A program made the translations under genes and the position numbers. Below, one piece after another: positions 41,659 to 46,333 of a stretch of DNA of 64,000 bases. The first letter of the stretch is position 1. Every line of letters begins with the position of its first letter. Origin of the DNA: Streptomyces sp. NBC_01353 (GTDB lineage Bacteria; Actinomycetota; Actinomycetes; Streptomycetales; Streptomycetaceae). The stretch covers positions 8,209,501 to 8,273,500 of the forward strand of contig NZ_CP108352.1 of assembly GCF_036237275.1 (NCBI RefSeq), written 5' to 3'. The notes under the pieces were generated by a model. It was not told the origin of the DNA. It saw only the letters and a list, made by a program, of their open reading frames with translations, and did not search any database.

Positions 41659-42324
41659 TCAGAGGCTGCGCCGGTACCGGTTGGCGATGGCGGAGATCCA
41701 GGTCATCGCGGTGATGACGCCGATGGCCAGGGTCAGGGTGCCGGCCTTGCCGCCGCTCATGGACCAGCCGTTGCCGAGCAGAAGGGCGGTGCCGGCGATG
41801 CGGGAGCCGATGGCGTACCGGCGGTTCCCGGCGCGGCTGAAGTGGCGGCCCAGGACGTAGCAGGCGGCGATCAGGGCGATGAAGGTGACCGAACCGGCGG
41901 CGAAGTGGGCGTAGCTCTGCCAGGTCAGGACGGCCGGCATTCCGTCCGGGGTGCCGAGGGGGAAGCCGTCGGCCGGGTCCATCACGAAGGCGCCTGCGGC
42001 AATCATGCCGATGCCGCTGGTCCGTACGAGTCGTGGCAGCCACGTGCCTCCGGGGGTGCCGTGCAAGGCGCGGCGCAGGCCGGTGGCTCCGGCGACGGTC
42101 AGAACGCCGGCGAGTACGAAGTTGGTGATCTGGATCCAGCCGAGGGGGCCGTTGCTCAGTGCGCTCAGCGGGTGGCGTGTGATGTCGAAGCCTTGGCGTG
42201 TGGCGGCCTGGGTCAGGGCGACGACTGCCCACAGAGGCTGGGCCACGACCGCGATGGCGAGGAGGGAGCGGGTGGCGGTCGAGGTGGTGGCGGTGGAGGC
42301 GGTGGGGATCTGGGCGGTGGCCAT
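41659..42324 (-). CDS. DUF998-family integral membrane protein
   Basis: A 221-residue protein with about six TM helices (SLLAIAVVAQPLWAVVALTQ; ITNFVLAGVLTVAGATGL; HFAAGSVTFIALIAACYVLG; TLTLAIGVITAMTWISAI) and the DUF998 signature DITRHPLSALSNGPLGWIQ. ATG 42324 is chosen as the first Met before a Thr/Ala-rich N terminus. It is divergent from the DGPF/YCII gene around a 17-bp inverted repeat, so it may belong to the same regulon as the ECF42 sigma factor. Confidence 0.88.
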   Translation of the reverse strand: MATAQIPTASTATTSTATRSLLAIAVVAQPLWAVVALTQAATRQGFDITRHPLSALSNGPLGWIQITNFVLAGVLTVAGATGLRRALHGTPGGTWLPRLVRTSGIGMIAAGAFVMDPADGFPLGTPDGMPAVLTWQSYAHFAAGSVTFIALIAACYVLGRHFSRAGNRRYAIGSRIAGTALLLGNGWSMSGGKAGTLTLAIGVITAMTWISAIANRYRRSL

Positions 42325-42378
42325 GGTGGGTGTCTCGCTTCTGCTCGTCGATTGCGGTTCTCGCCGACACGTCGATCT

Positions 42379-42421
42379 CGTGATGTGACAGGGAACGCCG
42401 CGCATTCCCTGTCACATCACG
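42379..42421. promoter_or_regulatory. 17-bp perfect inverted repeat between divergent genes
   Basis: CGTGATGTGACAGGGAA (42379-42395) and TTCCCTGTCACATCACG (42405-42421) are perfect complements around a 9-nt loop. It lies 55 nt from the DUF998 start and 58 nt from the DGPF start. Each outward-facing arm carries TGTCACA, resembling the -35 element of ECF41-type promoters, so the pair could be divergent promoters or a dyad operator. Confidence 0.6.
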
Positions 42422-42478
42422 CCGTTCGACGCCTAGGCAGACGACAGACGAATGCAGGACGAGAGGAACGAAGACTCC

Positions 42479-42802
42479 ATGCGCTACCTCATGACGACCA
42501 GGCCCTCCGAGACCGCCCCCGACGAGAAGCTGTACGTCGAGATGGGCAGGTTCATCGAGGAGCTGTCTGCGGCCGGTGTGCTGCTGGCCACGGGTGGCCT
42601 CGAGCCGGGCGGTGTCCTGGTGACCTCCGCCGGCGACGAGATCACGGTGACGGACGGGCCGTTCGCCGAGGCCAAGGAAGCGGTGGCCGGATTTGCCTTG
42701 ATCGAGGTCCGTTCCAGGGAGGAGGCGATCGAGCTCGCCCGCCGCTTCCGCCGGATCGTCGGTGACGGCGAGAGCGTGGTCCAGCAGGTCTTCGGACCCT
42801 GA
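42479..42802 (+). CDS. YCII/DGPF-domain protein
   Basis: A 107-residue dimeric alpha-beta-barrel protein: RYLMTTRPSETAPDEKLYVE, then the DGPF motif TDGPFAEAKEAVAGFALIEV. These proteins are the constant genomic partner of ECF42 sigma factors, which transcribe them; the ECF42 gene follows 63 nt downstream. Their biochemical role is unknown. GAGAGG lies 12 nt before ATG 42479. Confidence 0.93.
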   Translation: MRYLMTTRPSETAPDEKLYVEMGRFIEELSAAGVLLATGGLEPGGVLVTSAGDEITVTDGPFAEAKEAVAGFALIEVRSREEAIELARRFRRIVGDGESVVQQVFGP

Positions 42803-42865: not shown

Positions 42866-44866
42866 GTGGCGGGTGTTGTCATCGTGTCCGTGCAGGATGC
42901 TCACCGTACGGTCGATGCGGCTTGGAAGCTCGAATCGGCCAAGATCGTCGCCTCGCTCACCCGGATGGTGCGCGACGTCGGTCTGGCCGAGGAGTTGGCT
43001 CAGGACGCCCTCGTCGCCGCGCTCGAACAGTGGCCCGTCTCGGGAGTCCCGGACAACCCCGGCGCCTGGCTGACGACGACCGCCAAGCGCCGCGCCGTCG
43101 ATCACATCCGGCGTTCCCAGCGCCTCGAGCGCAAACAGGAGCAACTCGCCCACGAGCTGGGACAGCAGCAGGAATGCGAGCCGCAGGATCCCGAGCGGGA
43201 CGATGTCCTGCGGCTTGTGTTCATCTCCTGCCATCCCGTGCTGACGGCCGAGGCCCGCGCCGCACTGACACTCCGCCTGCTCGGCGGTCTGACGGCCGCA
43301 GAGATCGCACGGGCCTTCCTCGTCACGGAGACGGTGATCACCCAGCGCATCGCCGCCGCCAAGAGGACGCTGGCCGAGGAACGCGTGCCCTTCGAGTTGC
43401 CGGAAGGGCCCCAGCTGGCCGAGCGCCTTGCCTCGGTCCTCGAGGTCATCTACCTGATCTTCAACGAAGGGTATTCCGCGTCGTTCGGCGACGATCTGAT
43501 GCGGCCCGGTCTCTGCCTGGAGGCCCTGCGGCTGGGCCGGCTGCTGGCCGAGCTGGCGCCGCAGGAGGCCGAGGTGCACGCGCTGGTCGCGCTGATGGAG
43601 GTTCAAGCGTCCCGCTCAGCCGCGCGGACCGGGCCCGCGGGCGAGCCCGTCCAACTGCACGAACAGAACCGGGGACGCTGGGACCAGCTGCTCATCCGCC
43701 GAGGCTTCACCGCGATGCTGCGGGCCAGGGAGGCCGGTGGCATGCCCGGCCCCTACACGCTGCAGGCGGCCATCGCCGTGTGCCACGCACAGGCACGGAG
43801 CGCCGAGGACACCGACTGGGCACAGATCGCGACGCTGTACGAGGCGCTGACCCGACTGCTGCCGACACCGATCGTGCGGCTGAACCGCGCCGTGGCTGTC
43901 GGGATGGCGCACGGACCACAGGCGGGGCTCGACCTGGTCGACTCCCTGATCGCCGATCCCGCGTTGCGTGACTACCACCTCCTCCCGAGCGTCAGGGGAG
44001 ATCTGCTGGCCCGGTTGGACCGCCACGACGAGGCACGGCTGGAGTTCCACCGGGCGGCGTCCCTCGCGCGGAACGCCGCCGAACGCGCCTTTCTGGAACG
44101 GCGCGCGGCTGAGATCGGCGTCACGGTTCCGCCGGGCCGCACGCTCGGGCAGGCCGCCCACGACTTCCTGAGCCGGGACGATCTGGACGCCGGGACGATC
44201 CGTTCCTACGGACAGACCCTGCGACGCCTTTGCCGAACCCTCGGCGGCCGGCTGCCGCTGACCTCTCTGACGGCCGACCAGGTGACACGGGTGTTCACGA
44301 CGACCTGGGACAGCGCGGCAGCAACGACGTGGAACCGGCACCGGTCGGTCGTCCGGTCCTTCGGCGCCTGGGAGTCCCTGGGCGACCTCACGGTGGGGCT
44401 GGACCGTCGCGCCGAGACACATCTGCGAGCGCGGGCGCTGAAGTCCGCGCAGCTCGACGCACTGTGGCGTCGCCCCGGCCTGCCGCTGCGCGAACAGGCC
44501 CTGTGGCGGCTGCTGCACGAATCGGCGGCCGGCGTGAAGGCCGTCCTGTCGCTGAACATCGAAGACCTGGACCTCGACGACCGTCGGGCCTGGACCGGCG
44601 CCACCTGGGTGAGCTGGCGCTCTGGGACGGCCCGGCTCCTTCCCGAGCTGCTGGCCGGCAGGACCCGGGGTCCGGTGTTCCTCTCCGACCGTCGCCCCGG
44701 CCCGGCTCGAACACCCAAGGAATCCGACCTGTGCCCGGACACGGGCCGCCGCCGTCTGTCCTATGAGCGGGCCGAGTACCTTTTCAAGCAGGCCACCCAA
44801 GCCCTGGACCCGACCGGCAACGGCTACACCCTGCACCAACTCAAGTCCCGTCCCCGCGATCGCTGA
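42866..44866 (+). CDS. ECF42 sigma factor fused to a truncated tyrosine-recombinase-like domain
   Basis: A single 666-codon frame. Residues about 10-185 are sigma-2 and sigma-4 (VRDVGLAEELAQDALVAALE; LTAAEIARAFLVTETVITQR). Residues about 190-415 are the helical C-terminal domain usual for ECF42, with FNEGYSASFGDDLMRPGLC. Relatives end here, but this protein continues for about 245 residues as a phage-integrase-like domain: core-binding part (DLDAGTIRSYGQTLRRLC), then catalytic-fold part (ARALKSAQLDALWRRPGLPL, LSLNIEDLDLDDRRAWTGAT, GTARLLPELLAGRTRGPVFL). It ends just after LHQL, so the second Arg region and the Tyr nucleophile are missing and the first Arg is replaced (ESAAGVKAV). The start may be GTG 42884 or 42890. 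It presumably still transcribes the DGPF gene. Confidence 0.88.
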   Translation: MAGVVIVSVQDAHRTVDAAWKLESAKIVASLTRMVRDVGLAEELAQDALVAALEQWPVSGVPDNPGAWLTTTAKRRAVDHIRRSQRLERKQEQLAHELGQQQECEPQDPERDDVLRLVFISCHPVLTAEARAALTLRLLGGLTAAEIARAFLVTETVITQRIAAAKRTLAEERVPFELPEGPQLAERLASVLEVIYLIFNEGYSASFGDDLMRPGLCLEALRLGRLLAELAPQEAEVHALVALMEVQASRSAARTGPAGEPVQLHEQNRGRWDQLLIRRGFTAMLRAREAGGMPGPYTLQAAIAVCHAQARSAEDTDWAQIATLYEALTRLLPTPIVRLNRAVAVGMAHGPQAGLDLVDSLIADPALRDYHLLPSVRGDLLARLDRHDEARLEFHRAASLARNAAERAFLERRAAEIGVTVPPGRTLGQAAHDFLSRDDLDAGTIRSYGQTLRRLCRTLGGRLPLTSLTADQVTRVFTTTWDSAAATTWNRHRSVVRSFGAWESLGDLTVGLDRRAETHLRARALKSAQLDALWRRPGLPLREQALWRLLHESAAGVKAVLSLNIEDLDLDDRRAWTGATWVSWRSGTARLLPELLAGRTRGPVFLSDRRPGPARTPKESDLCPDTGRRRLSYERAEYLFKQATQALDPTGNGYTLHQLKSRPRDR

Positions 44867-45706: not shown

Positions 45707-46333
45707 TCAGGGACCCGGCCTGTCGGCACCGGTGTCCGGCGGGGACGGCGAGATCGAGGCGAGGAAGTCGTCGAGCATGGCGGTCTGTACGTCCTCGGGG
45801 AACCGGCCGGGGTCGAAGAGGGCCTGGACGACGAGACCGTGGGTGAACGCGACGGCGGTGGCTGCGAGTTGCTCGGGGTCGGCGGACGCGGACAGCTCCC
45901 CCTGGTCGCGAGCGGCTTCGAGGTGCGGACGGATCGTCGAGCGCAGGCGGGTGTAGCGGTCGGCCTGGTCCGCGCCGAGAGCATCGTCGGCGAGGGCCAG
46001 GTCCCACGAACTGACCCAGATGCGGTTGCGGGCGGTGTCGTCGGTGGTCAGCGGCAGGATGTCCAGCAGCACGGCCCTCAGGGCAGCGAGGCCCTCGGTG
46101 GGACGTTCGCGACGGGGGCGTTCCGCCGTGCTCTTCTCCAGGAGGTCCAGGGCGTGTGAGACCAGGGCCCGTTTGGTGGGGAAGTAGTGCATGAGCATGC
46201 CGGTCGAGACCCCCATGGCGGCGGCGACGGCGCGCAGCGTCAGCCCGCCGAACCCTTTGTCGGCCAGGACCTGCCACACCGCCTCGGACACGTCCTGGCG
46301 GCGGGCTTCACGGTCTCCAAGTGCGGGAGGCAT
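45707..46333 (-). CDS. TetR-family transcriptional regulator
   Basis: A 208-residue repressor with an N-terminal HTH (GGLTLRAVAAAMGVSTGMLM, HYFPTKRALVSHALDLLEKS) and a C-terminal ligand/dimer domain (ARNRIWVSSWDLALADDALG; QLAATAVAFTHGLVVQALFD). It starts at ATG 46333 after GGAG-type purines and is divergent from the GNAT-SnoaL gene at 46382. Only 48 nt separate the starts, and a palindrome in that gap suggests that it represses both genes. Confidence 0.92.
   Translation of the reverse strand: MPPALGDREARRQDVSEAVWQVLADKGFGGLTLRAVAAAMGVSTGMLMHYFPTKRALVSHALDLLEKSTAERPRRERPTEGLAALRAVLLDILPLTTDDTARNRIWVSSWDLALADDALGADQADRYTRLRSTIRPHLEAARDQGELSASADPEQLAATAVAFTHGLVVQALFDPGRFPEDVQTAMLDDFLASISPSPPDTGADRPGP

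Follow-up and report, generated by a model that had tools for sequence, protein, structure and literature searches.

In the window, the stretch of 64,000 nucleotides of Streptomyces sp. NBC_01353 DNA analysed here, an ECF42-type sigma factor gene runs in frame into a truncated tyrosine recombinase. It follows a YCII-domain gene in a presumed operon, opposite a divergent gene for a DUF998 membrane protein. The features are as follows.

41659..42324, minus strand: divergent DUF998 membrane-protein gene (PF06197, E 8e-36); the start ATG at 42324 is chosen, the frame being open to an ATG at 42405
42371..42374, minus strand: predicted -10 CGAC facing DUF998
42383..42395, minus strand: half-site TTCCCTGTCACAT, at the -35 position of the predicted DUF998-facing promoter
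42396..42404, no strand: inverted-repeat spacer, 9 bp
42405..42417, plus strand: half-site TTCCCTGTCACAT, at the -35 position of the predicted YCII-sigma promoter
42427..42430, plus strand: predicted -10 CGAC of the YCII-sigma promoter
42452..42802, plus strand: YCII-domain gene, first of the presumed operon (PF03795, E 1.4e-12)
42866..44866, plus strand: fused gene, ECF42-type sigma factor plus truncated tyrosine recombinase (open reading frame, Pfam, comparison)
42947..43123, plus strand: sigma-2, residues 28-86 (Pfam)
43223..43372, plus strand: sigma-4, residues 120-169, with Ala164 (43355-43357) in place of the QRIxRAK Arg (Pfam, alignment)
43424..44101, plus strand: DUF6596 and TPR-like ECF42 C-terminal extension, residues 187-412 (Pfam, model)
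44144..44380, plus strand: recombinase core-binding domain, residues ~427-505 (Phage_int_SAM_1; model pLDDT mostly 89-96)
44381..44866, plus strand: truncated catalytic domain, residues 506-666, with Gly for Arg I and with Lys, third-box His and Tyr absent (alignment)
44753..44797, plus strand: LSYERAEYLFKQAT helix, residues ~630-644, within the most constrained segment (alignment, dN/dS, model)

The fused protein

The fused gene encodes 666 amino acids from a GTG start without internal stops; further GTG codons lie in the frame at residues 7 and 9, and the start is a candidate among these. Pfam placed Sigma70_r2 at residues 28-86, Sigma70_r4_2 at 120-169, DUF6596 at 187-287 and Phage_int_SAM_1 at 442-502. 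This order, in a frame open for 666 codons, bears out the preliminary description of the gene as an ECF42 sigma factor fused in frame to a truncated tyrosine recombinase. The succession of sigma-2 and sigma-4 followed by the DUF6596/TPR extension (Pfam, model) is that of ECF42, and so is the YCII-domain neighbour. A YCII gene lies upstream in 89 of 97 fusion rows, in which the window locus and several species are counted twice, and 7 of the remaining 8 rows have short flanks. Downstream of the fusion, a TetR-family regulator gene occupies 45707-46333 of the window on the minus strand.

In the catalytic part the first Arg is replaced by Gly and the Lys-bearing hairpin is shortened. The frame stops just past LHQL, ahead of the HxxR Arg and the Tyr. 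Both the replaced Arg and the stop at LHQL before the second Arg and the Tyr had been read correctly in the preliminary description. Downstream of 44866 we saw no HxxRH continuation that would indicate a hidden frameshift when the listed frames were read by eye. The AlphaFold model of the fusion, which had been proposed as a check, gave a mean pLDDT of 89.8 and a pTM of 0.69, and sigma-4 was modelled confidently. In the recombinase part, blocks of ten residues mostly had pLDDT values of 85-96, with 51 for the final block. Foldseek placed three complexes of Tn1549 integrase with DNA at the top (E ~6e-4 to 9e-4; query-based TM 0.27), and lower down, interspersed with TPR proteins, came XerA, lambda integrase and an integron integrase. 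From its core-binding domain and the inverted repeat of two half-sites, the locus appears to hold both the fold and the site of a tyrosine recombinase.

The LSYERAEYLFKQAT helix, which precedes the HxxR box, is presumably helix J in Cre nomenclature. Helix J of Cre enters the major groove, which fits both the truncation just after the LSYERAEYLFKQAT helix and its strong conservation.

Distribution, selection and catalytic decay

Genome contigs were scanned with the C-terminal 249 residues, which yielded 120 relatives, of which 80 were kept. With the window locus added, 74 of the 81 loci are fusions and 7 are stand-alone recombinases. The search for other proteins spanning both domains thus found them in number, on plasmids too. 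Two of the 74 fusion loci are frame-broken, L008 in the sigma part and L085 in the integrase part; these breaks may reflect sequencing error or decay, and L085 also lacks the half-site described below. Counting an open frame plus a sigma match, the fusion occurs in 9 of 150 Streptomyces genomes and in at least 15 of 394 genomes of the class, where the initial pass took up to 7 candidates per genome. In the plasmid collection, six records match over 80% or more of the query, and the fusion is present on Streptomyces plasmids. It was found in none of the phage records, two of which match the sigma part only. The sigma-tree rows come, where families are named, from Streptomycetaceae, Streptosporangiaceae, Pseudonocardiaceae, Micromonosporaceae, Nocardiopsidaceae, Thermomonosporaceae and Nocardiaceae. 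In the window's own genome, weak short matches to the recombinase part lie towards the opposite end of the chromosome, at C1:188121-188352 (L006, L007).

The proteins share an end point: in 72 of 74, no more than 22 residues separate the stop from the TLxxL after LSYERAEYLFKQAT; L056 (42 residues) and the frame-broken L085 are the exceptions. The few members that are longer at the C-terminus are mostly early-branching. In 14 close pairs the last integrase segment, residues 628-660, had the lowest median dN/dS of five segments (0.055), against 0.20 for sigma-2 to sigma-4, 0.19 for DUF/TPR and 0.29 and 0.33 for the integrase domains. By this measure the fusion family is under purifying selection. 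The preliminary description had also allowed that the fusion was a recent accident at a recombination site or a sequencing error, and had taken absence from every related genome, together with lack of expression, as a sign of it. An inert integrase tail of this kind would agree with the loss of catalytic residues. We consider it extremely improbable and reject it: the fusion is widely distributed, recurring in other loci, genomes and plasmid records, its last integrase segment is strongly constrained, and the end point is common to nearly all members.

In 32 stand-alone relatives the catalytic residues are largely intact (Arg I 30, Lys 30, His 30, Arg II 32, His III 31, Tyr 30), counts that lean towards intact proteins because ten rows judged broken or fragmentary were dropped by hand and rows below 250 aa by a filter. 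The fusions fall into two classes, A and B; the fusion in the window belongs to B, and class A was assigned from tails and promoters together. Among 73 class B fusions, 3 have Arg I and none has the Lys, His III or Tyr, so that the R-K-HxxR-H/W-Y set of an active tyrosine recombinase is incomplete throughout. Two of the 15 class A fusions have Arg I; in the Tyr column, nine have a gap, four Phe, one Leu and one (L056) Tyr. L056 (3684-5855 of a MAG contig) is a fusion with an apparently complete recombinase catalytic set and is possibly still active. As far as sequence goes, the fusion is conserved, its catalytic residues are lost and the helix before HxxR is kept.

Both an integrase and a sigma tree were built by a quick method. 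The integrase tree, from which L008 was dropped, separates its 88 fused rows from the stand-alone recombinases with a support of 97. Starting from the stand-alone recombinases, L056 comes first, followed by the full-length Phe/Leu group, the other class A proteins and then class B (99), which is nested within a class A grade with inner supports of 84-88. In the sigma tree, unfused, class A and class B proteins form three clans, each supported at 98 or more; the exception is the frame-broken L008, which was kept among the 74 class B rows of the sigma analyses and forms a long false branch. The order of events is therefore moderately supported, since the grade rests on supports of 84-88 while the sigma tree resolves three clans.

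The half-site and its register with the -10

Most fusions carry ATGTGACAGGGAA-N8-10-TTCCCTGTCACAT upstream of the YCII gene. With up to three mismatches, the half-site was found in 75 of 76 upstream regions of fused loci and in 0 of 28 unfused regions; among the 76, L153 duplicates L049, and the region without a half-site is that of L085, which was dropped from the alignments. Upstream DNA fetched later comprised 19 regions, 5 of them duplicates. The half-site was present in 13 of the 14 others and was not found upstream of L180. Nine of the 13 have both half-sites with CGAC at 21-22 bp (DUF998 in 8 of the 9), three belong to class A and have a -35 of the canonical type, and in L197 one half-site stands alone, in register, although a DUF998 gene lies opposite.

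The same or a diverged inverted repeat often lies beside the gene of stand-alone relatives. The TTCCCTGTC form is found at L074, where each arm has one mismatch and a third half-site is exact, and at L067, whose arms have one and two mismatches; for the nearest two stand-alone recombinases the half-site is TTCCCTGTCACAT within 2 mismatches. Moreover, site and helix before HxxR vary together: YERAEYLFKQAT goes with TTCCCTGTC, YPRAEYLFKQAS with TTCTCTGTC or TTCTGTGTC, and YRRAEEIFEENT with TTTACTGCGG, and the other stand-alone half-sites, TTTTCTGCGG or TTATCCGG, also follow this helix. Within 2 mismatches, the half-site gave 18 matches at 9 of 43 stand-alone loci, against 2.7 expected from mononucleotide shuffles, and was not found at the other 34. 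Inverted repeats of any sequence were present in 21 of 38 stand-alone regions, against 4.3 in a Markov control and 9 of 33 in a downstream control. The repeats near stand-alone genes are only moderately above controls, so the weight is carried by the sequence relation between site and helix rather than by the mere presence of a repeat. Judged by that relation, the half-site belongs to the recombinase.

Of the 19 repeats found in the stand-alone loci, 17 have a 7-bp spacer; the search required AA/TT-edged arms and found them in 19 of the 38 regions examined. The class B spacer is 8 bp in 41 loci, 9 in 7, 10 in 3 and longer in 3 (8-10 bp in 51 of 54), and 9 of 63 regions lack a pair. A variable spacer is expected once recombination no longer fixes it. 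In three stand-alone loci the inverted repeat is followed, ~60-90 bp downstream, by a third half-site (L067, 3862-3983; L074, 4701-4806; L131, 1353-1462), which suggests an accessory site or autoregulation.

The target promoter of ECF42 is TGTCGA/CGAC. Unfused ECF42 operons have TGTCGA plus GTTCGACG, with 23 bp from the start of TGTCGA to CGAC/CGTC in 22 of 28 loci; the pattern was not found in the other 6. Upstream of TGTCGA these unfused promoters (L002-L004, L151-L178) show a moderately conserved A-rich stretch, ~gaaaaa-n-ttcc. Class B keeps the same -10 and has the -35 replaced. Here the half-site starts 21 bp (26 loci) or 22 bp (34 loci) before CGAC in 60 of 63 regions, a count that admits only offsets of 20-23. 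When offsets of 17-24 were admitted, 52 of 54 inverted-repeat loci had 21 or 22 bp, and in the exceptions the first CG[AG]C lies at 18 bp (L055) and 17 bp (L075). In the fused operons, then, a recombinase half-site is present in the apparent promoter region, in register with the retained -10. At L030 and L059 only the DUF998-facing half-site was found, near the YCII start, and the YCII-sigma promoter has apparently changed to a different element.

Class A differs in layout. By pattern, 13 of its 15 promoters have a (T)GTCGA-type -35, which was not found in L150 and L152. The proximal half-site starts 41-43 bp upstream of this -35, or farther away: 52 bp (L056) and 52-54 bp (L192, L193 and L195, the later-examined promoters of L122, L123 and L126); the two distances differ by about one helical turn.

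A change in sigma-4 accompanies the loss of the -35. All 30 unfused and all 15 class A proteins keep the Arg of QRIxRAK, which we take to correspond to the -35-contacting Arg176 of E. coli sigma-E; of the 74 class B rows, which include the frame-broken L008, 3 keep it (L047, L080 and L120). Class B is one clade, so that the -35 and the sigma-4 Arg may have been lost in one correlated event. Mean entropy of the sigma-4 recognition helix is 1.21 in class B vs 0.86 in unfused proteins; that of sigma-2 is lower in class B (0.61) than in unfused proteins (1.03). In the aligned class B loci, the -35 hexamer is absent together with the sigma-4 Arg. Could class B sigma-4 instead have been respecified to read CCTGTC as a new -35, with the integrase domain doing something else, such as dimerisation? 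The half-site does overlap the -35 position, and sigma-4 is still there and confidently modelled. We consider this unlikely, since the same half-site accompanies stand-alone recombinases, at whose loci no adjoining sigma match was found, since the class A half-site lies 41-54 bp from the -35, and since the class B recognition helix is variable though its DNA site is nearly invariant.

A divergent DUF998 gene adjoins 59 of the 76 fused loci and 1 of the 28 unfused ones. It accompanies 46 of 54 inverted repeats (none was detected at the other 8), 10 of 11 direct repeats and 3 of 10 single half-sites (L030, L059 and L087); for paired vs single half-sites the presence of DUF998 is 46/8 vs 3/7 (Fisher P 0.0008). 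On the DUF998 side, CGAC lies at 21-22 bp from the left half-site in 49 of the 54 loci with an inverted repeat, and the window palindrome can be read as two back-to-back predicted promoters, of the DUF998 gene and of YCII-sigma. In the 8.57-Mb genome of the window, these two promoters are the only matches to TTCCCTGTC-N12/13-CGAC, and the control gave 0; the exact half-site also occurs twice, both at this locus, with 1 match for a reversed-pattern control. By eye, a one-mismatch half-site at 4133783 has no CGAC at 21-22 bp. Another at C1:717712 (L147) has CGAT 22 bp downstream and is possibly a further target, or chance.

A half-site over the -35 would also suit a repressor, and stand-alone recombinases carry the site near their own gene. 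The domain might therefore use the half-sites for repression or auto-inhibition of the operon rather than for recruiting polymerase. We regard this as quite unlikely: with the -35 hexamer gone, the sigma factor would have no known -35 without the domain, the spacing between half-site and -10 is fixed at 21/22 bp, and DUF998 is found more often with paired than with single half-sites.

Proposed mechanism and known systems

We infer from these comparisons that the integrase domain binds the half-site and that sigma-2 opens the CGAC -10, and from the register that the integrase domain replaces the contact between sigma-4 and the -35. For the window, it is highly likely in our judgement that a dead recombinase domain took over -35 recognition from sigma-4, leaving an ECF42-derived sigma factor that has ceded part of its promoter recognition. 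The sequence comparisons strongly support the suggestion, made in the preliminary description, that a DNA-binding domain without catalytic activity redirects promoter choice; the promoter palindrome, the lost -35, the sigma-4 change and the divergent DUF998 gene go beyond that description. For the whole clade, we hold it likely that a domesticated, dead recombinase replaced sigma region 4 as the reader of the -35, turning its core site into back-to-back promoters, and that class A retains the preceding arrangement, a recombinase domain bound upstream of a promoter that was still intact.

Sigma-2 reads the -10 of promoters in this family. In class B, the integrase domain would most likely bind the half-site and keep the RNA polymerase holoenzyme in place. 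With sigma-2 reading the -10, recognition of the sequence would no longer require sigma-4. The inverted repeat would act as two back-to-back promoters, for the divergent DUF998 gene and for the YCII-sigma operon itself. In class A, where the half-sites lie upstream of a TGTCGA/CGAC-type promoter, the domain would probably anchor the holoenzyme like a built-in upstream activator. By analogy with ECF42, an input signal would act via the TPR extension and perhaps the YCII protein.

If true, this would be a novel means of selecting genes for transcription, and it predicts an autoregulated DUF998/YCII/sigma island. A sigma factor could escape region 4 specificity by fusing to a DNA-binding fold, keeping the old site of that fold and losing the -35. 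Living intermediates may have survived: a fusion with the complete set (L056), full-length proteins with Tyr changed to Phe, truncated ones with a canonical-type promoter and truncated ones with the -35 lost, which makes each evolutionary step testable. The arrangement would amount to a natural modular design of sigma-2 plus an exchangeable DNA reader, and the relation between helix and half-site is visible in the stand-alone relatives.

ECF42 carries a TPR extension essential for activity and has a YCII neighbour, according to the available text of PMC8999054. The terms "integrase" and "recombinase" are absent from the available text of PMC8999054 and PMC8103513, and the available part of PMC10880074 mentions ECF42 and integrase once each. 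Among openly accessible papers, as judged by titles and the beginnings of abstracts, we found none describing a sigma-recombinase fusion, which we provisionally regard as new. ECF41 with SnoaL_2, ECF52 and ECF56 likewise have a C-terminal domain added to an ECF sigma factor, but in the accessible parts of the sources these extensions are regulatory, and none is described as a site-specific recombinase fold.

The fusion shares with ECF42 sigma factors the domain order up to residue ~412, the upstream YCII gene and the -10 GTTCGACG. It differs from them in the extra recombinase domain and the divergent DUF998 gene and, in class B, in lacking the TGTCGA -35 and the RAK Arg. With XerC/XerD/XerA-type and actinobacterial stand-alone recombinases it has in common the core-binding domain, the first part of the catalytic domain and the TT-edged inverted-repeat arms; unlike them it is joined to a sigma factor, has an incomplete catalytic set in class B and a spacer of mostly 8-10 rather than 7 bp. 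In sigma appropriation by T4 AsiA/MotA, a separate DNA-binding fold takes the -35 region and the -10 is kept. The fusion would be alike in function, a takeover of the -35 region that is suggested here by the register, but the T4 fold is a separate phage protein, whereas here a recombinase-derived fold is joined to an alternative sigma factor in one polypeptide.
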